Positions 34,222 through 48,124 of a stretch of 49,636 nucleotides of DNA are shown here, piece by piece. The number at the start of each line of letters is the position of its first letter. The first letter of the stretch is position 1. The translations under genes and the position numbers were made by a program. The notes under the pieces were generated by a model. The model saw only the letters and a list, made by a program, of their open reading frames with translations. It was not told the origin of the DNA and searched no databases. The stretch comes from a virus, in the IMG/VR virus record IMGVR_UViG_3300046472_000117, positions 1 to 49,636 of that record; one strand, written 5' to 3'.

Positions 34222-35094
34222 GTGCCACCTACATTGAAATATGACATCCGAGGAGTAGAGTCGGGGCAGGACTTCGACGAGCCGATTCCTAAGGGTGTCT
34301 ACCGCATGAGCATCCTTTCATGTATCCAGACCAAATCCAGCAAAGGCAACGACATGCTGGAATTGGAACTGGAAATCATCAAAGGCAAATTCAAGGGCAG
34401 GCGCGTGTGGGACTACGTGGTCCTTACCAAAAAATCCGAATGGAAGCTGGCCAGCTTGGTCCGCGCATTGGGACTGAAAGAGAAAGGTGGCCTCAACCCA
34501 GAAAAACTAACCGGCAAGACGTTGACGGCGAAAGTGAAGCTGGAAACGTACACCACGGAAGACGACGACGGTGATGAGGTAACCAAGGTCACCAACAAGA
34601 TCGCATCCCTGCTTCCGAAGGCTGACGCCGAAGAGGCTGAGGAGGAGGAGCCCGAGGAGGAAGAGGAAGAAGAGGAGGCCGAGGAGCCGGACGAGGAAGA
34701 AGAGGAAGAGGACGGCGACGAGGAGGGTTACACCGAGGAGGAGATCAACGAGGCTGACAAAGCCGCGCTGAAGGAGATCATCTCCGACGAGGAGCTCGGC
34801 ATCCGCGTCACCAAAAAAACCAAAGTCGCGGCGCTCCGCAAGAAAGTGTTGGAGGCTTTGGAAGAGGCCGAGCTCATGGAGGAGGCCGAGGAGCCGGACG
34901 AGGAAGAAGAGGAAGAGGGCGACGAGGACGAGGCAGGCTACGACGAGATGTCGTTGGCCGAACTCAAGGCGGAGCTCAAAGAGAGGGAGCTCAAAGTCGG
35001 TGGCAAAAAGCCAGCCCTGATCAAGCGGCTGGAAGCAGACGACGAAGAAGAGGAGGGCGAGGGCGAGGACGATGACGGAGACGAGCCCTTCTAA
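34222..35094 (+). CDS. Putative ssDNA-binding protein with SAP domain and acidic SSB-like tip
   Basis: The protein has 290 residues from GTG 34222 with AGAAGGAGAAAG upstream. Residues ~1-130 form a beta domain of DUF669 type (YRMSILSCIQTKSSKGNDML, then GRRVWDYVVLT), a group linked to phage ssDNA binding. Two acidic linkers flank a helical module (residues ~170-215), and the C-terminus holds a SAP-like domain (YDEMSLAELKAELKERELK, then KKPALIKRLEA). The end, GDDDGDEPF, resembles the SSB C-terminal tip that recruits partner proteins. A 40-nt direct repeat encodes both acidic linkers. Neighbours (Sak4, primase) support a single-strand DNA role. Confidence 0.8.
   Translation: MPPTLKYDIRGVESGQDFDEPIPKGVYRMSILSCIQTKSSKGNDMLELELEIIKGKFKGRRVWDYVVLTKKSEWKLASLVRALGLKEKGGLNPEKLTGKTLTAKVKLETYTTEDDDGDEVTKVTNKIASLLPKADAEEAEEEEPEEEEEEEEAEEPDEEEEEEDGDEEGYTEEEINEADKAALKEIISDEELGIRVTKKTKVAALRKKVLEALEEAELMEEAEEPDEEEEEEGDEDEAGYDEMSLAELKAELKERELKVGGKKPALIKRLEADDEEEEGEGEDDDGDEPF
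34672..34918 (+). repeat. 40-nt direct repeat inside the SSB-like gene
   Basis: Bases 34672-34711 and 34879-34918 are identical. The copies are 207 nt apart, a multiple of three. Each encodes EEAEEPDEEEEEE. Recombination between copies would remove or duplicate one helical module in frame. Confidence 0.85.
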
Positions 35095-35366: not shown

Positions 35367-36302
35367 ATGCTCCCCGACCAAGTGATGGCCAAACTCAAAC
35401 CCTATATGGCAGGTGCTCAGCCGGATGCGCGAGGCGAGGTAGAAATGTTCTGCCCCTTGCATAACGACACGCGGCGCAGTGCCAGCCTGAATGTAGAGAT
35501 GGAGGTTTGGTTCTGTCATGGTGGGTGTGGCGGAGGTAGCATCCGTCACTTGGTCGACGCCGAGGACATATGGGTCAGGCTGGAGGGACGGGTACCAAAC
35601 GGTAACTCGCTCTCCAGCTTGGCTCAGTCCTTCGGCCCTATCCCAAACGAAAAGAAGCTCAAGAAGGAAGTGGTCGCATGGCACAAACGGTTGATCCATG
35701 ACCCGGAACGCTTGCGATACCTGTTCGAACTACGTGGCATTACCAAGGCCACGGCCAAGCGGGCAGAGCTTGGTTGGGATGGCAGGTACTTCAAGATACC
35801 TGTGTGGTCACCAGAGCGGGAGCTATGGAACGTGAGAACATACGATCCCAAACCAAGGCTGGGACGCCGCAAGATATGGGGCGTGCGCGGCAGCAACCGG
35901 CCACGGCTGTACCCGGCAGGCGTCATGGAGCGGCTTGACCCTGGCGACCGTGTGATATTCTCAGAGGGCGAGTTAGATGCGCTCATGGGCAACCAGTCGG
36001 GCATACCCACAGTGACCCGCACAGACGGCGCAGGCAAGCCGTGGCACCCTGAATGGACCGTAGCCTTTGCCGGGTTGCACGTGTACCTGTGCCAAGACGT
36101 TGATAAGCAAGGCGACACAGCCACAGCGATAACGGGCCAAGCCCTCGCGGCTGTGTCGAACGTTCACGTGTGTCGGCTGCCGTATGGGTGGAAGCCCAAA
36201 GGTGGCCGTGACCTCACAGACTTTCTGTTGGACGCGGAGCAGCCGCGTGTGGCGCTGGAGTTACTACTAGAGATGTCAAAACCATACCAGGAGATAACAT
36301 GA
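35367..36302 (+). CDS. DNA primase with zinc finger and Toprim-like domain
   Basis: The protein has 311 residues. The N-terminal zinc finger has ligands in FCPLHNDTRRS and WFCHGGCGGGS. The Toprim core shows FSEGELDAL (catalytic Glu) and the DVD of YLCQDVDKQGD, with GGRDLTDFL at the end. It would make RNA primers for the DnaE polymerase. It is shorter than DnaG and lacks a helicase domain; the helicase role may fall to the RepA-like ATPase at 44934. It is coupled to the next gene (ATGA). Confidence 0.88.
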   Translation: MLPDQVMAKLKPYMAGAQPDARGEVEMFCPLHNDTRRSASLNVEMEVWFCHGGCGGGSIRHLVDAEDIWVRLEGRVPNGNSLSSLAQSFGPIPNEKKLKKEVVAWHKRLIHDPERLRYLFELRGITKATAKRAELGWDGRYFKIPVWSPERELWNVRTYDPKPRLGRRKIWGVRGSNRPRLYPAGVMERLDPGDRVIFSEGELDALMGNQSGIPTVTRTDGAGKPWHPEWTVAFAGLHVYLCQDVDKQGDTATAITGQALAAVSNVHVCRLPYGWKPKGGRDLTDFLLDAEQPRVALELLLEMSKPYQEIT

Positions 36303-37090
36303 ATAAGAAGGCAATCATTCTAGGTTGCGGACCGGCTGCCATGCTGGCAGCAAACCAACTCTGGCGTGATTTCAATTACGCAATAGAGGACATTGAATTC
36401 ATGTCCTTGTTTGTGGATCCGTCACCCATCGGCGGAGCGCAGTACCTACACGAGCCTATGGTTCAGATGGGTACACCACCCGATGCCACTATTGAGTTCA
36501 TCAAGGTGGGTAATCCAGAGGACTACGCCGAGAAGGTGTACGGCAGCCCACACGTGCCGACAAGCTGGGGAGAGTACGGCAGGCGTCAGGTTGCTTGGAA
36601 GTTGCAAACCACCTACACAGATCTGTTCAGCAAGTTCCGCCACATGATCACGGGAGGGTGGCAGGCAACCGCCACATCAGTTCAGCAGCTACTGGAAGAG
36701 CGGCTAGAGCCAGGTGTGCTGTTCCTAAGCTCGGTGCCAGCGGACTGTCTGTGCAAACGACCTGACCTACATAACTTCCCGCGTGCTTACATCACCATAC
36801 GCAAGGAGCAGCCCGACTTCCTGCCGATGGACAATGTAGTGGTGTACAACGGCAGGCCCGATGATGAGTGGTATCGGGCGTGTAAATTATTCGGCCAGTG
36901 TTGGACTGAGTTCGGTGCCAATGAGATAGTGCTTCGGGAGGGGAAAGATGAGTTTATTACAGGACAGAAGCCTATGGGCACTTCCTGTGACTGCTATCCC
37001 GAGATACATCGCATCGGCCGGTTCGGCACGTGGGATCGCAAAGTGCTACTGACAGACGTGCCGAAGCAGGTTCAGGAGGCGCTTGCATGA
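36299..37090 (+). CDS. FAD/NAD-binding oxidoreductase-like protein
   Basis: The protein has 263 residues. It starts with a Rossmann motif (AIILGCGPAAMLAANQL, residues 5-21) and ends with a segment like that of FAD enzymes (HRIGRFGTWDRKVLLTDV), which in UDP-galactopyranose mutase-type proteins closes the FAD site. The middle lacks an obvious substrate domain and is shorter than full enzymes. Several Cys lie in CLCKRP and SCDCYPE. First gene of the coupled cassette 36299-39456. The substrate is unknown; a role in nucleotide or DNA modification is inferred from context. Confidence 0.65.
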   Translation: MNKKAIILGCGPAAMLAANQLWRDFNYAIEDIEFMSLFVDPSPIGGAQYLHEPMVQMGTPPDATIEFIKVGNPEDYAEKVYGSPHVPTSWGEYGRRQVAWKLQTTYTDLFSKFRHMITGGWQATATSVQQLLEERLEPGVLFLSSVPADCLCKRPDLHNFPRAYITIRKEQPDFLPMDNVVVYNGRPDDEWYRACKLFGQCWTEFGANEIVLREGKDEFITGQKPMGTSCDCYPEIHRIGRFGTWDRKVLLTDVPKQVQEALA

Positions 37091-37737
37091 AATGCACTAG
37101 CTGCGGCACCATTGTCAAGCCGATCGTAGCCGTTGACATTGACGGCACACTTGGCAACTACCATGCACACTTTGAAGATTTCGCCGAGGAGTACTTTGAC
37201 AGGGTCATTAGGCCCGGCTGCCTGTACAGGGGTGGCGAGAGTATGAGTGCATGGGCCATTAGGGAGCTCGGCATCACGCGGGCAGCGTACCGGGATTGTA
37301 AACTCGCCTACCGGCAAGGTGGCCTCAAGAGGACCATGCCCCTATTTGATGGCGCAAAGGGGCTGTGCGAGCGCATACGGGCTGCTGGCGGGGAGCTATG
37401 GCTAACCACCACCCGGCCATACCTGCGGCTGGACAACGTAGACCCAGACACGCGGGAGTGGTTGCGGCGCAAGGGTATTCAGTATGACCACCTTTTGTAT
37501 GACGAGAACAAGTATCAAGTGCTTCACGACCGCCTAACAGACCCCGACCGGGTAGTAGCGATCGTAGATGATCTCGTAACCAACATCAGTGAAGCTCAAC
37601 ACATCTTCCGCTGGGATAAGGCCATGTGGATACGTACCCAATGGAATGAGAAGGACGGAGGCGGAGGCATCGGGCTTGAGGGTGTCGCGCCATTCGTAGA
37701 GACCAAGATCAAGGAGTGGATACACAGCCATGAGTAA
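37087..37737 (+). CDS. HAD-superfamily phosphatase-like protein
   Basis: The protein has 216 residues from ATG 37087. An N-terminal CTSC precedes the HAD motif I VAVDIDGTLG (Asp17, Asp19), then LTTTRP (motif II) and IVDDLVTN (motif IV). The size and cap arrangement fit 5'-nucleotidase or deoxynucleotidase-type HAD enzymes, or a polynucleotide 3'-phosphatase. Coupled to both neighbours (ATGA before, 8-nt overlap after). A nucleotide substrate is a reasonable guess in this setting. Confidence 0.8.
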   Translation: MKCTSCGTIVKPIVAVDIDGTLGNYHAHFEDFAEEYFDRVIRPGCLYRGGESMSAWAIRELGITRAAYRDCKLAYRQGGLKRTMPLFDGAKGLCERIRAAGGELWLTTTRPYLRLDNVDPDTREWLRRKGIQYDHLLYDENKYQVLHDRLTDPDRVVAIVDDLVTNISEAQHIFRWDKAMWIRTQWNEKDGGGGIGLEGVAPFVETKIKEWIHSHE

Positions 37738-38425
37738 TAAGACCATGATAGTAATAGGAGCCCGTCGCGGCAGCGGCAACATTGGTGAGGGTATCAAAGA
37801 GGCCATGCAAGATGCAATGTGGCAGGTGTACTCACACGATGCCGAACTGGACGATGGCAGCTACGGTGTGCCAACGTTGGACAAACGACTGTGGCAAGAA
37901 GCTGATGCTCTGGTCGTCAGTCTGGGTACCGTATCCATGGAGCCTTTCATAGACCTACACCCCGAAGACCTACAGGAAGTAATTCAGGGCTGTCTGACGC
38001 TGCCTTTGCAAGTGGTGATGCAGTATGTACAGTCACGCCGTGAGAAGGGTGGCAAGATCATCATGATCGGCAGTTATGCGCACAGGCACCCGTTCACCAA
38101 TGGTGTGCCGTACTGCGCAGCCAAGGCGGGTCTTGACATGGCAGGCAAGGTGCTTGGTTGGGAGCTTACTGCACAGGGATTCAGTACGCATGTGGTGCAT
38201 CCTTACCACGTACCTGACTCGCCCATGTGGGAGGTCGTGCAAGAGGGTGTCATGGAACAGCGCGGTATGGACCGGCAGGAAGCTGACTACCATGCGTTCA
38301 AGGACAACCGCATGCGGCTGATGGATCCGTATGAGATAGGTGTCATGGTGCATATGCTCTGCACCCTGCCCGAGGCTGCTTGGTTGTCAGGTACCAACCT
38401 GGAGCTCTTCGGTGGCACAAGGTAG
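37730..38425 (+). CDS. Short-chain dehydrogenase/reductase (SDR)
   Basis: The protein has 231 residues. The cofactor motif is GARRGSGNIG (10-19), a variant of the usual GxxxGxG. Catalytic Ser115, Tyr128 and Lys132 are all present (IGSYAHRH, PYCAAKAG). The C-terminus follows the SDR pattern (WLSGTNLELFGG). It should act as an NAD(P)-dependent oxidoreductase. An SDR beside oxidoreductase, HAD and Nmad-like genes in a phage replication region suggests modified nucleotide synthesis (inference). Overlaps both neighbours. Confidence 0.85.
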   Translation: MSNKTMIVIGARRGSGNIGEGIKEAMQDAMWQVYSHDAELDDGSYGVPTLDKRLWQEADALVVSLGTVSMEPFIDLHPEDLQEVIQGCLTLPLQVVMQYVQSRREKGGKIIMIGSYAHRHPFTNGVPYCAAKAGLDMAGKVLGWELTAQGFSTHVVHPYHVPDSPMWEVVQEGVMEQRGMDRQEADYHAFKDNRMRLMDPYEIGVMVHMLCTLPEAAWLSGTNLELFGGTR

Positions 38426-38684
38426 AAACTTCCGCCTCAACAAAGTCCAGGCATTCAAACTGGCCACTGTTGGTTACTTCTCGGAGAGCGACGAGGTAGT
38501 GATTGACGCTGACAGCTATGACCATCACACGGAATCTTTTCTGTTCGCTCTGAAGGTACACCCCGAACGCATCCCCGAGAGTACGTGGGCCATCCTCAAG
38601 GCCAACCCAAAGGGATGGAGCTTCTTCAAGATGCACCACGACGGTAACTTTTTCCCATACGACAAGGACGGAGACAATGGTTAA
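38412..38684 (+). CDS. Small cassette protein, 90 residues
   Basis: GTG 38412 lies inside the SDR gene, seven bases after GGAG. The product has a basic N-terminus (AQGRNFRLNKVQAFKLATVG) and an aromatic, acidic end (SFFKMHHDGNFFPYDKDGDNG). No family is recognised. It is coupled to the SDR and to the VOC-Nmad gene (8-nt overlap), so it may be a partner or subunit. Confidence 0.65.
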   Translation: MAQGRNFRLNKVQAFKLATVGYFSESDEVVIDADSYDHHTESFLFALKVHPERIPESTWAILKANPKGWSFFKMHHDGNFFPYDKDGDNG

Positions 38685-39456
38685 AATAGATCACGTCACG
38701 GTAGTAATCCCTGACGACCCAATCGCAATGGAGAACGCACTCAGCATGCTTACCGCTATGGGCATGCGACTGGTAGAACCTGACACTCAGTATGCCGCCA
38801 GAAATACGCAGTGGAAATACAACCATCTCGAAGACGACAACGGCTTCAAGGTACACGTGGTCTGCGAGGGAGAGAACGATGCCAAAGCTGGCGAGCCGGG
38901 GCTGGCACACTTCCGGGCTGTGGTCACACGTGAGACCTTCGAACGGTTGACTACGTGTGTCTACTGTGAGCGCAACGCAGGCAGTGGACGCATATGGTTG
39001 CGTGGCCCTGGCACACTGCGGGCCGAGGTCATTACCACTGCGGGGCTGATGCCATCCAAGAGGGGCGAGTTCGGTGTGGAAGTGGAGGGTGCTGAGTTTA
39101 TTCCGTCAATGGGTGGCATCCTCGATGATATCCCTGAGGACGAGGGGCATGCTCTACACCTGCGCCGCCACAAAGAAATCATGGAGCGCGCTTTGAACAT
39201 CATGGTAGAGCGCGATCCTAAGTACCACGACTCGTGGAAGAACTACGGGTGGCGCGGTGCAATATTCAACATGAGGCGCAAGGCAGAACGTGTGTGGCAT
39301 CTGATGTTCAATCTGGATCCGAACGATCTGAATACAGACACTATGCACCGTGACGTTGATGACCTCTACGACATCATCAACTATGCAACGATGGCCGTGC
39401 AGTGCATTGAAGATGCCAACCGCGATGGCACCGACGGATGGTGGAAGGCAGACTGA
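38677..39456 (+). CDS. VOC-like domain fused to Nmad1/DUF1599-like domain
   Basis: The protein has 259 residues. Residues ~1-120 resemble the glyoxalase/VOC fold (KIDHVTVVIPDD, then GFKVHVVCEGE and GTLRAEVITT). Residues ~185-259 (KYHDSWKNYGWRGAIFNMRR, then VDDLYDIINYATMAVQC) match DUF1599, also called nucleotide modification-associated domain 1, found in phage operons predicted to make modified bases (family knowledge). The fusion is unusual. It ends the cassette, and its stop overlaps the polymerase start (TGATG). The precise reaction is unknown. Confidence 0.7.
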   Translation: MVKIDHVTVVIPDDPIAMENALSMLTAMGMRLVEPDTQYAARNTQWKYNHLEDDNGFKVHVVCEGENDAKAGEPGLAHFRAVVTRETFERLTTCVYCERNAGSGRIWLRGPGTLRAEVITTAGLMPSKRGEFGVEVEGAEFIPSMGGILDDIPEDEGHALHLRRHKEIMERALNIMVERDPKYHDSWKNYGWRGAIFNMRRKAERVWHLMFNLDPNDLNTDTMHRDVDDLYDIINYATMAVQCIEDANRDGTDGWWKAD

Positions 39457-43511: not shown

Positions 43512-44408
43512 ATGGGTACAGACATTCAAAGATGGGCAGACACGGCCATGTATAGCGCCGAGCCGGTGGAGGGGCTGAGTGTAACACTGCTAGCCGCGAC
43601 ACCAGACCCGCTCGGCTCCATCGCGGCTGCGTCGAACATTTACAAGGGCAAGGTCATACGCAGCAAGACTGACCTGACCGACATCGAACGTGTGGACTTC
43701 TTCGAGGACATACAGAAGACACACCTACAGGCACCGCTCGAGTACATGGACCTGCACTTCCTGCTGGAGGGTGTGACGCGCAGTTTCACACATCAGTTGG
43801 TGCGGCAGCGTACAGCCGTGTATGCACAGGAGAGCATGCGGTTTGCAGTGAAGGAAGACCTCGTGACCGAGGCTGTCAAGCCGCCCAGCCTGGTAGACAA
43901 GGGCGAGAGCGGTGTGTTCAAGAGCAGCAAGGAGCAGGAGATCGCCGTCAGCATCTGGGACGACGCCATTGCACACATCGACGAGGCCTATAAGGTGCTC
44001 GTCAATATGGGTGTGCCAGCAGAGGATGCACGCGGGCTTATGCCGCACGCTACACCGACGCGCGTCCACTACAAGACCAATCTGAGAGGGCTGGCTGACC
44101 ACGCTGGTAACCGCCTGTGTACGCAGGCACAGTTCGAATGGCGAGAAGTGATCGCACTCATGATCAAAGCCATCTACAACTACAGCACTCCGATGGCTGA
44201 TTTCATGAAGGACGACGGCTGGCAGTTCATGCGCATCGCCGAGAGCAAGCTATTCCAGCCGGTGTGTTTCACACAAGGCAAGTGCCCGTTCAATGCCAGC
44301 TTTGACCGTGGCTGTACCATCAGGCCACGTGTGGAAGAGGGTAAGTTCGACGAGATCAGCATGGGCGAGTGGATGCTTGACCCGGCTGCCGCGAGGAGAG
44401 ACAAATGA
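43512..44408 (+). CDS. thyX: Flavin-dependent thymidylate synthase ThyX
   Basis: The protein has 298 residues. ThyX makes dTMP from dUMP using FAD, NADPH and methylene-tetrahydrofolate. The signature region is RQRTAVYAQESMR (98-110), aligned with the usual RHRxxSxNxxSxR: Arg98, Arg100, Ser108 and Arg110 are kept, while His, first Ser and Asn are replaced by Gln, Val and Ala. The surrounding HFLLEGVTRSFTHQLVRQR and GRLxD-like regions fit the family. It would feed the replicase with dTTP. Coupled to the next gene (ATGA). Confidence 0.9.
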   Translation: MGTDIQRWADTAMYSAEPVEGLSVTLLAATPDPLGSIAAASNIYKGKVIRSKTDLTDIERVDFFEDIQKTHLQAPLEYMDLHFLLEGVTRSFTHQLVRQRTAVYAQESMRFAVKEDLVTEAVKPPSLVDKGESGVFKSSKEQEIAVSIWDDAIAHIDEAYKVLVNMGVPAEDARGLMPHATPTRVHYKTNLRGLADHAGNRLCTQAQFEWREVIALMIKAIYNYSTPMADFMKDDGWQFMRIAESKLFQPVCFTQGKCPFNASFDRGCTIRPRVEEGKFDEISMGEWMLDPAAARRDK

Positions 44409-46984: not shown

Positions 46985-47355
46985 TGGACATTACCAAATT
47001 GCCGCAGGATAAGTTCCTGACAGAGATAGAGAAGCGGGAAGACATCTTGCGCGAAGAGCTGATGGGCGACGAAGTGCGTGTGAGGTTTAATGGCTACAGG
47101 AAGATGATCAAGGCCACAGTGGTTGCACGTAAGCGGCCTGACTACAGCAGCGTCGGGCCAGAGTGGCGCATTGGGTTCACGTATGGCAGGGGTCACCAGG
47201 GGCAGCAGCTTGCACGGTGCCGCAGGCTAGACGTGAACACCGACAACGGCTGGCGCACGGTCTGGGATGACGGCATTGGTGAATTTGCCGAGTGGCAGGC
47301 CAAGGGCATCAAGCTGCCTAGCTGCCCAAAGTGGCGGAGCGGCACGCTCGGCTAA
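46984..47355 (+). CDS. Hypothetical protein, 123 residues
   Basis: The start overlaps the previous stop. An N-terminal helix (LPQDKFLTEIEKREDILREE) is followed by a beta domain (RVRFNGYRKMIKATVVARK, then WRIGFTYGRGHQGQQ). No family is recognised. It is the last gene before a 181-nt gap. Confidence 0.7.
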   Translation: MDITKLPQDKFLTEIEKREDILREELMGDEVRVRFNGYRKMIKATVVARKRPDYSSVGPEWRIGFTYGRGHQGQQLARCRRLDVNTDNGWRTVWDDGIGEFAEWQAKGIKLPSCPKWRSGTLG

Positions 47356-47404
47356 GCTGTGCCTGTCTGCGCACGCGCCTGCTGGGGTCGGCGTGCCAGG
47401 CAGC

Positions 47405-47442
47405 GCGAGGTCCGGCTCTCTTGCTTGGCAGCCGGGCCTCGC
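47405..47442 (+). other. Strong hairpin in the 47356-47536 gap
   Basis: GCGAGGTCCGGCT (47405-47417) and AGCCGGGCCTCGC (47430-47442) form a 13-bp stem with one G-U pair and a 12-nt loop. No T-run follows. It lies about 30 nt upstream of the promoter box at 47470 and may end the upstream transcript. Confidence 0.6.
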
Positions 47443-47469
47443 CCCCTGCCTGCGGCGCAGGGAAAACTC

Positions 47470-47478
47470 TGGTAGCTT
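47470..47478 (+). promoter_or_regulatory. Extended -10 promoter for the zinc-ribbon/basic-tail gene
   Basis: TGG TAGCTT fits TGnTANNNT. No -35 match. The next start is at 47537, leaving a leader of about 50 nt with AAGGAG at 47522-47527. Confidence 0.5.
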
Positions 47479-47536
47479 GGTGGCCGTCAAGCAAAGCGTG
47501 CCCAGCCGGGCACGGCATACCAAGGAGAAAAATCAC

Positions 47537-48124
47537 ATGGCACGTAAAGCCAAAGGACGCAAAGCCGCCAAAGGCAAAGGACGGAAACGTTCACGCCAAG
47601 GCACAGAGGCAACGGGTGGGTCCAGCAAGTGGGCAAAGTTCAACACGAACAGCCTGGAGCGCCGCATGGGTACCCGCAAGGAGGGTCGCTGTCAGCTCTG
47701 CCTGACCAAGGCTGATCTGGACGACCAGTACACGGTCGTCAACGACCTGGACGCTGGCACGGTGAAGAAAGCCAAGAATGCCAGCGCCGAGAAGAACGAG
47801 CACCTGTCGCACTACTGCGGCGACTGTGCTGACAAGCGTGTCGCGCGCAAGGAATACTGGATGGAGAATGTCCGCGAGGCATCCGGTCCAGACCAGCGTG
47901 GCAAGTCGGGCGGCAGCAAAAAGAAAACCGCCAAAAAGAAAAGGGTGCGAAAAGGCAAAGGCACCAAAGGCAAAGGCAAAGGCAAGAAAGCGGCAGCCAA
48001 AGGCAAGGCACCGCGCAAGCGCACCCGCAAGACGCGGGCCAAGAGCGACGCCAAGCCCAAACGGCAGCGGCGCACGGCCAAGGCCAAGGCGGCTGAGGCG
48101 GACGGCGACGACGAGCCCTTCTAG
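47537..48124 (+). CDS. Zinc-ribbon protein with histone-like basic tail and SSB-like acidic tip
   Basis: The protein has 195 residues. A basic N-terminus (ARKAKGRKAAKGKGRKRS) is followed by a zinc ribbon (Cys52-Cys55, Cys94-Cys97 in CQLC and CGDC). Then comes a ~70-residue Lys/Arg/Ala-rich tail (KKTAKKKRVRKGKGTKGKG), like histone H1 or the HupB tails of actinobacteria. It ends abruptly with ADGDDEPF, close to the acidic tip of the SSB-like protein at 34222 and to bacterial SSB tips. It has its own promoter and terminator. It may coat or compact DNA and recruit replication factors (inference). Confidence 0.75.
   Translation: MARKAKGRKAAKGKGRKRSRQGTEATGGSSKWAKFNTNSLERRMGTRKEGRCQLCLTKADLDDQYTVVNDLDAGTVKKAKNASAEKNEHLSHYCGDCADKRVARKEYWMENVREASGPDQRGKSGGSKKKTAKKKRVRKGKGTKGKGKGKKAAAKGKAPRKRTRKTRAKSDAKPKRQRRTAKAKAAEADGDDEPF

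Follow-up and report, generated by a model that had tools for sequence, protein, structure and literature searches.

A conserved gene module at the DnaE and ThyX genes of phages, a candidate pathway for the synthesis of modified pyrimidines

Results

Organization of the locus

The DNA analysed here, a 49.6-kb virus record from IMG/VR (IMGVR_UViG_3300046472_000117) that we call the window, carries between a primase-like gene and the gene of a DnaE-type DNA polymerase a cassette of five plus-strand open reading frames (ORFs), which we propose to be part of a pathway for modified nucleotides. A first-pass annotation made from the sequence alone had described five coupled ORFs at 36299-39456, and both their positions and the overlaps that it gave are exact: 4 nt between the primase-like gene and gene 1, 4 nt between genes 1 and 2 (ATGA at 37087), 8 nt between genes 2 and 3, 14 nt between genes 3 and 4, 8 nt between genes 4 and 5, and 1 nt between gene 5 and DnaE. 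The start codons are ATG at 36299, 37087, 37730, 38677 and 39456 (DnaE) and GTG at 38412. The domain calls of that annotation (an oxidoreductase-like protein, a HAD protein, a short-chain dehydrogenase/reductase (SDR), a small protein and a fusion of VOC and Nmad1-like domains) also hold by profile and fold searches. The features of the locus are as follows.

35367..36302, plus strand: primase-like protein, context of the cassette, overlapping gene 1 by 4 nt
36299..37090, plus strand: gene 1, minimal FAD/Rossmann protein of predicted UDP-galactopyranose-mutase fold, 263 aa, phrog_8720; module core
37087..37737, plus strand: gene 2, HAD phosphatase, NT5C/PNKP-phosphatase-like; catalytic Asp, Thr, Lys and Asp invariant across the family
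37730..38425, plus strand: gene 3, SDR; Ser-Tyr-Lys residues present
38412..38684, plus strand: gene 4, near-orphan protein of 90 aa; a single homologue, in the related locus L105
38677..39110, plus strand: gene 5, N-terminal part, VOC domain; H6, H60, H78 and E117 invariant
39130..39453, plus strand: gene 5, C-terminal part, helical Nmad1-like (DUF1599-related) domain; a separate gene in the loci L095, L102 and L156 and in phage RikSengupta
39456..42782, plus strand: DnaE-type DNA polymerase III alpha, translationally coupled by the 1-nt overlap
43512..44408, plus strand: ThyX-family flavin-dependent thymidylate synthase, RQR instead of RHR, 0.7 kb past DnaE

The proteins of the cassette

Gene 1 matches phrog_8720 (E = 4e-34) and no Pfam family. 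Its AlphaFold model, obtained with an alignment of 76 relatives (pLDDT 94, pTM 0.90), is predicted to be that of a small FAD protein with the fold of UDP-galactopyranose mutase (UGM), since the structures closest to it are such mutases (4dsg, Z 15.3, root-mean-square deviation 3.6, 252 residues). The protein carries the GxGPxG motif of the FAD-binding Rossmann type and, like the mutases, a GR-[YF]-x-x-W region close to the C-terminus. This match could be taken to mean that gene 1 encodes a true mutase, giving a furanose with which the phage DNA or the actinobacterial cell wall would be glycosylated. The match is however partly generic, because other FAD enzymes reach Z 12-13 with the same model; furthermore, gene 1 is far shorter than the mutases (263 aa against 360-510) and no glycosyltransferase is found among the conserved parts of the block, so that we give such a sugar-nucleotide chemistry very little credit.

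The assignment of gene 2 to the NT5C type is borderline because its score against PF06941, 24.9 bits, barely exceeds the cut-off of 24.8. The DxDGT, Thr, Lys and DD motifs are all present, and D17, D19, T108/T109, K142, D161 and D162 are invariant in the family. The nearest PHROG is phrog_415, a polynucleotide kinase family; the HAD profile retrieved nothing at E 0.01 among solved structures, and an NCBIfam search gave no match for genes 1, 2 and 5. Gene 3 is an SDR (E = 4e-13; PF13561 at 49.9 bits for a cut-off of 27) in which the Ser-YxxxK residues S115, Y128 and K132 are invariant. Gene 4 is a real gene though almost an orphan, its only homologue being a protein 42% identical that occupies the equivalent position in L105.

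For gene 5, the matches listed by Foldseek for the whole model are chains of the VOC/glyoxalase type (best E 2e-4), in agreement with a paired beta-alpha-beta-beta-beta fold in a region of moderate model confidence. H6, H60, H78 and E117 are invariant in five members and are placed by the model on or adjoining strands beta1, beta4, beta5 and beta8, the usual ligand strands of VOC enzymes, which predicts that the metal ligands are intact. The structure that best matches the C-terminal domain is AF_0060, an archaeal protein (Z 9.1 across 84 residues) that we take to be MazG-like. PF07659, "Nucleotide modification associated domain 1", matches 8 of the 50 members of the C-terminal family (best E 3e-5) and leaves the window protein itself unmatched; searched against whole genomes, those of relatives included, it gave no match, so this model alone is too weak here. 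Single-sequence searches of phages and viral contigs retrieved no close relative of the fused gene 5, and its relatives were found solely via their module neighbours: VOC and Nmad1 form one fused gene in the window and in L105 and are unfused neighbours in RikSengupta, L095, L102 and L156.

Conservation of the module

IMG/VR was scanned with the flavoprotein and HAD alignments, which gave 167 flavoprotein loci, 127 of them distinct at 90% identity; the counts of conservation rest on the 109 distinct loci whose contig extends to DnaE. Between the flavoprotein and DnaE, these loci contain HAD in 107 cases, Nmad1 in 102, SDR in 42, VOC in 20 and a methyltransferase in 9, and ThyX lies downstream in 78 of the 83 with sufficient sequence. 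When the loci were selected by the flavoprotein alone, HAD was present in 60 and Nmad1 in 58 of the 61 that reach DnaE, the median identity between pairs of their flavoproteins being about 40%; the association of flavoprotein, HAD, Nmad1 and DnaE is therefore far beyond chance. The first-pass annotation had named absence or scrambling in relatives, together with phage DNA made of standard bases only, as what would speak against it. The module is on the contrary conserved and co-directional in more than 100 distinct loci, and it occurs in addition in E. coli and Serratia phages. The five genes of that annotation stand as it gave them, but they are not the unit that is conserved: the core consists of the flavoprotein, HAD, Nmad1, ThyX and DnaE, the ThyX at 43512-44408 being part of the module, while SDR and VOC are frequent add-ons and the small gene is nearly private. 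As judged from these sequences, the cassette is an old module, one version of a widespread set and not a possession of the window phage alone.

Blocks of oxidoreductase, phosphatase and DnaE are also carried by the annotated actinophages RikSengupta, BigMama, Wollypog, Gibson, Leopard, Rumi and Zany. Their core order is that of the window (in RikSengupta flavoprotein-HAD-SDR-VOC-Nmad1-DnaE, all as separate genes), whereas VOC and Nmad1 are unfused, the small gene is absent and some blocks contain a methyltransferase. In most Krampusvirus-type phages (L003 CoolCookie and L013 Haunter, of Microbacterium), ThyX lies within the cassette and replaces HAD, SDR and VOC; close relatives such as RikSengupta have HAD-SDR-VOC in the cassette and ThyX farther downstream. 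A predicted membrane glycosyltransferase is encoded immediately 3' of DnaE in RikSengupta (L004:15233-16309).

The neighbours added in relatives are enzymes of pyrimidines or DNA bases: besides ThyX, a uracil-DNA glycosylase superfamily gene (PF03167, E = 2e-24, e.g. L042:12818-13441) in 30 loci, in every one between the flavoprotein and DnaE; a dCTP deaminase/dUTPase in the same interval in 14 loci; and a gene of the pyrimidine-dimer glycosylase family (PF03013, Pyr_excise) immediately upstream of the flavoprotein in 47 (e.g. L059:7692-8264). DUF6378 is found in 8 loci, and MazG-like and DUF4406 genes also lie near the block. The two glycosylases, the proximity of the HAD protein to phrog_415 and the ligase genes of the Pseudomonas and E. 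coli phages described below would suit a repair of DNA ends or bases, in which the HAD protein would be a PNKP-type 3'-phosphatase mending the phage DNA together with these enzymes. No kinase domain was found, however, the window contains neither uracil-DNA glycosylase nor Pyr_excise, and end repair has no role for the flavoprotein, SDR, VOC and ThyX, which makes this function improbable.

The flavoprotein was found in phages only, a pattern scan of 84,980 bacterial and archaeal genomes giving 32 pattern matches of which none was confirmed. This distribution would agree with a counter-defence in which a signalling nucleotide or NAD is destroyed or altered, such molecules being possible substrates for a phosphatase and redox enzymes. 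The block is nevertheless constantly coupled to DnaE and ThyX and does not lie with early accessory genes, and we consider this the most far-fetched of the explanations.

Related loci in phages of proteobacteria

A fold search with gene 1 in BFVD, a viral fold library, retrieved a protein of Pseudomonas phage PA5 (E = 1e-9). Pbunavirus Ab28 encodes a UGM-like protein, gp81 (L178:20348-21349), a HAD+Nmad1 fusion, gp73 (riknm profile, E = 5e-20), ThyX and a DnaE-type polymerase, and no SDR or VOC match was obtained among its tested replication genes. In the E. coli phage Bas101 (Wifcevirus) the order is UGM-like protein 0051, ThyX 0049, HAD+Nmad1 0048 (riknm profile, E = 2e-28), SDR 0047 (E = 2.5e-49), VOC 0046 (E = 8e-28), exonuclease and polymerase, and the Serratia phage MyoSmar (Myosmarvirus) has the same arrangement (E = 3e-34 for HAD+Nmad1 with the riknm profile, 4.5e-50 for SDR and 2e-28 for VOC). 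Both Pbunavirus and Wifcevirus carry ligase genes. The replication locus of Wifcevirus and Myosmarvirus, published without assigned function, thus resembles the window in having a UGM-like flavoprotein, a ThyX of the RTR type, HAD, Nmad1, SDR and VOC at a DnaE-type polymerase; it differs in that HAD and not VOC is fused to Nmad1, ThyX lies upstream, and the flavoprotein has about 330 aa and is remote in sequence. Aligned profile to profile with that of the actinophages, the flavoprotein of the three genera matches over 236 columns (E = 3e-10), the C-terminal GR(Y/F)xxW motif included. The gene fusions, VOC+Nmad1 in the window and L105 and HAD+Nmad1 in Pbunavirus, Wifcevirus and Myosmarvirus, tie the parts of the cassette together.

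Matches to UGM-like flavoproteins, most of which are annotated as hypothetical, occur in 359 phage records, with Pseudomonas, Escherichia, Serratia, Xanthomonas and Rhizobium among the hosts.

The signature of ThyX

The ThyX of the window passes the cut-offs of PF02511 (110 bits for 24.8) and of TIGR02170 (91.3 bits for 87.9). It lacks the RHRx7S signature: RQR is aligned to the RHR of the Mycobacterium tuberculosis enzyme. The 115 ThyX ORFs of the module have RQR, RSR, RTR, RNR or RGR at this position, and none has the histidine, which is likewise missing in the ThyX of the flavoprotein carriers Pbunavirus Ab28, Salmonella phage PCSE1, Rhizobium phage TM30, MyoSmar, Bas101 and BiteSize. RHR is kept in ClubL, KLEB27-1, Cruella, BRock, STSV2, Neville, SP-076, phiYS40 and S-RIM12, and the corresponding residues of CRP-5 are KHK; these ten phages, all with the histidine, gave no match to the flavoprotein. 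Pbunavirus, PCSE1 and TM30 had been considered as ThyX controls free of the flavoprotein and were rejected as such when the BFVD fold search and its follow-up revealed a UGM-like flavoprotein in each, so that an apparent counter-example became support. As far as sequences can tell, the link between the flavoprotein and the RxR-type ThyX is an association along clades.

Other genes of the window

Two further proteins of the window share an acidic end. The product of 34222-35094 is a DUF669 (single-stranded-DNA-binding-like) protein that contains long acidic repeats and, in its C-terminal part, a SAP domain (PF02037, E = 2e-10); its terminus, GDEPF, resembles the acidic tip of SSB proteins. The histone-H1-like basic protein encoded at 47267-48124, rich in lysine and alanine, ends in the matching GDDEPF.

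Discussion

The gene set and its conservation, the catalytic and metal-ligand residues that appear intact in HAD, SDR and VOC, and a ThyX devoid of the RHR histidine are read from the sequences themselves. The interpretation that we moderately favour is a phage pathway, with this block as its core, for the stepwise synthesis of a modified pyrimidine destined for the phage DNA. In the model that we propose, the RxR-type ThyX would yield a 5-substituted dUMP, or a thymidylate that would serve as substrate. The UGM-fold flavoprotein and, where they are present, the SDR, the VOC protein and the methyltransferase would modify the substituent in turn, while the HAD phosphatase would dephosphorylate either an intermediate or the unmodified competitor nucleotide, and the Nmad1 domain would bind or cleave a nucleotide. 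The product would be incorporated into DNA by the coupled DnaE or, alternatively, the modification would be completed on the DNA. Different add-ons would lead to different end products among phages, and the likely benefit would be the evasion of restriction.

Several known systems resemble this model. Variants of the thymidylate synthase family are, along with deaminase and pyrophosphohydrolase domains, a mark of modified DNA in phages (PMC8670742), and the hydroxycytosine synthases are a further precedent from this family (PMC13390438). In the hypermodification of thymidine in M6, ViI and phi W-14, a thymidylate-synthase-type enzyme also acts first and tailoring enzymes are added, but 5-hydroxymethyldeoxyuridine (5hmdU) is made there and then phosphorylated by a 5hmdU DNA kinase (PMC6449724); a scan for this kinase (PF18723) matched 0 of 10 cassette genomes and was silent in the control genomes too. 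In the carbamoyl-hydroxymethylcytosine and arabinosyl-hydroxycytosine pathways, a variant enzyme of the family likewise acts on the mononucleotide to create the pyrimidine handle, as proposed here, although these enzymes are of the ThyA type and act with a carbamoyl- or arabinosyltransferase, neither of which lies in the window block (PMC8670742, PMC13390438). The stepwise synthesis of a modified nucleotide, already put forward in the first-pass annotation, is supported and not proven by the conserved set, by the pyrimidine and DNA-base neighbours and by a phenotype of Wifcevirus: phages Bas98-101 withstand all the restriction systems tested except EcoP1_I, without a known protection mechanism (PMC11990801). 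That annotation knew of no described system with this set, and we found no publication describing the cassette; a literature search whose coverage of key papers is incomplete gave no paper on the cassette itself, on base modification in actinophages or on a ThyX that acts as a hydroxymethylase.

A number of observations weigh against this interpretation. The change from RHR to RxR may mark a clade and not a new activity, and the ThyX of the window may simply make dTMP, since it still passes the NCBI cut-off. The flavoprotein of Pbunavirus and Wifcevirus is a remote relative of that of the window (E of 1e-4 to 4e-3 with single sequences), and an anti-restriction protein could account for the resistance of Wifcevirus, which is sensitive to EcoP1_I. 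The SacII site, CCGCGG, contains neither A nor T. The DNA of the Pbunavirus JG024 is cut by this enzyme (PMC3008698), and collections that include Pbunavirus gave ordinary banding with several enzymes, whereas the DNA of YuA-like phages resisted in the same study (PMC4482731). Finally, no nucleoside analysis of any cassette phage, such as one by liquid chromatography-mass spectrometry, was found in the literature. Because the tested replication genes of Ab28 gave no SDR or VOC match, one possibility is that these add-ons finish the protective group.

The digestible DNA of Pbunavirus, the score of the window ThyX and the MazG-like, dCTP deaminase/dUTPase and DUF4406 genes close by would also be expected if the block served the supply and hygiene of the nucleotide pool without any modified base. 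ThyX would then give dTMP, the 5'-nucleotidase-like HAD and the Nmad1/MazG-like domain would trim dNMP and dNTP, and the flavoprotein and SDR would support rapid replication through cofactor or salvage reactions. But a UGM-fold flavoprotein, an SDR, a metal-binding VOC protein and an optional methyltransferase are not what any standard route to dNTPs requires; the restriction resistance of Wifcevirus would be left unexplained, and the ThyX signature is altered in every flavoprotein phage that was read. We regard this function as unlikely, though as the most probable of the alternatives, followed by DNA repair, sugar-nucleotide chemistry and counter-defence in that order.

In conclusion, the analysis makes a single candidate pathway out of anonymous "oxidoreductase", "phosphatase" and "hypothetical" genes found across hundreds of phage genomes, and connects it with a published and unexplained phenotype, the restriction resistance of Wifcevirus, a question made testable by hosts that are E. 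coli K-12 derivatives. Could this be an undescribed and very widespread pathway for new pyrimidine bases in the phages of actinobacteria and proteobacteria, one that would also provide the missing protection of Wifcevirus? Its basis would be the RxR ThyX together with HAD, Nmad1 and the minimal flavoprotein of UGM fold, and its diversity would come from the SDR, VOC and methyltransferase add-ons. We advance this broader proposal tentatively, as a little short of an even chance. If confirmed, a modified base would bear on restriction, on phage defence, on the sequencing of phage DNA and, since Pbunavirus carries the module core, on the choice of phages for therapy.

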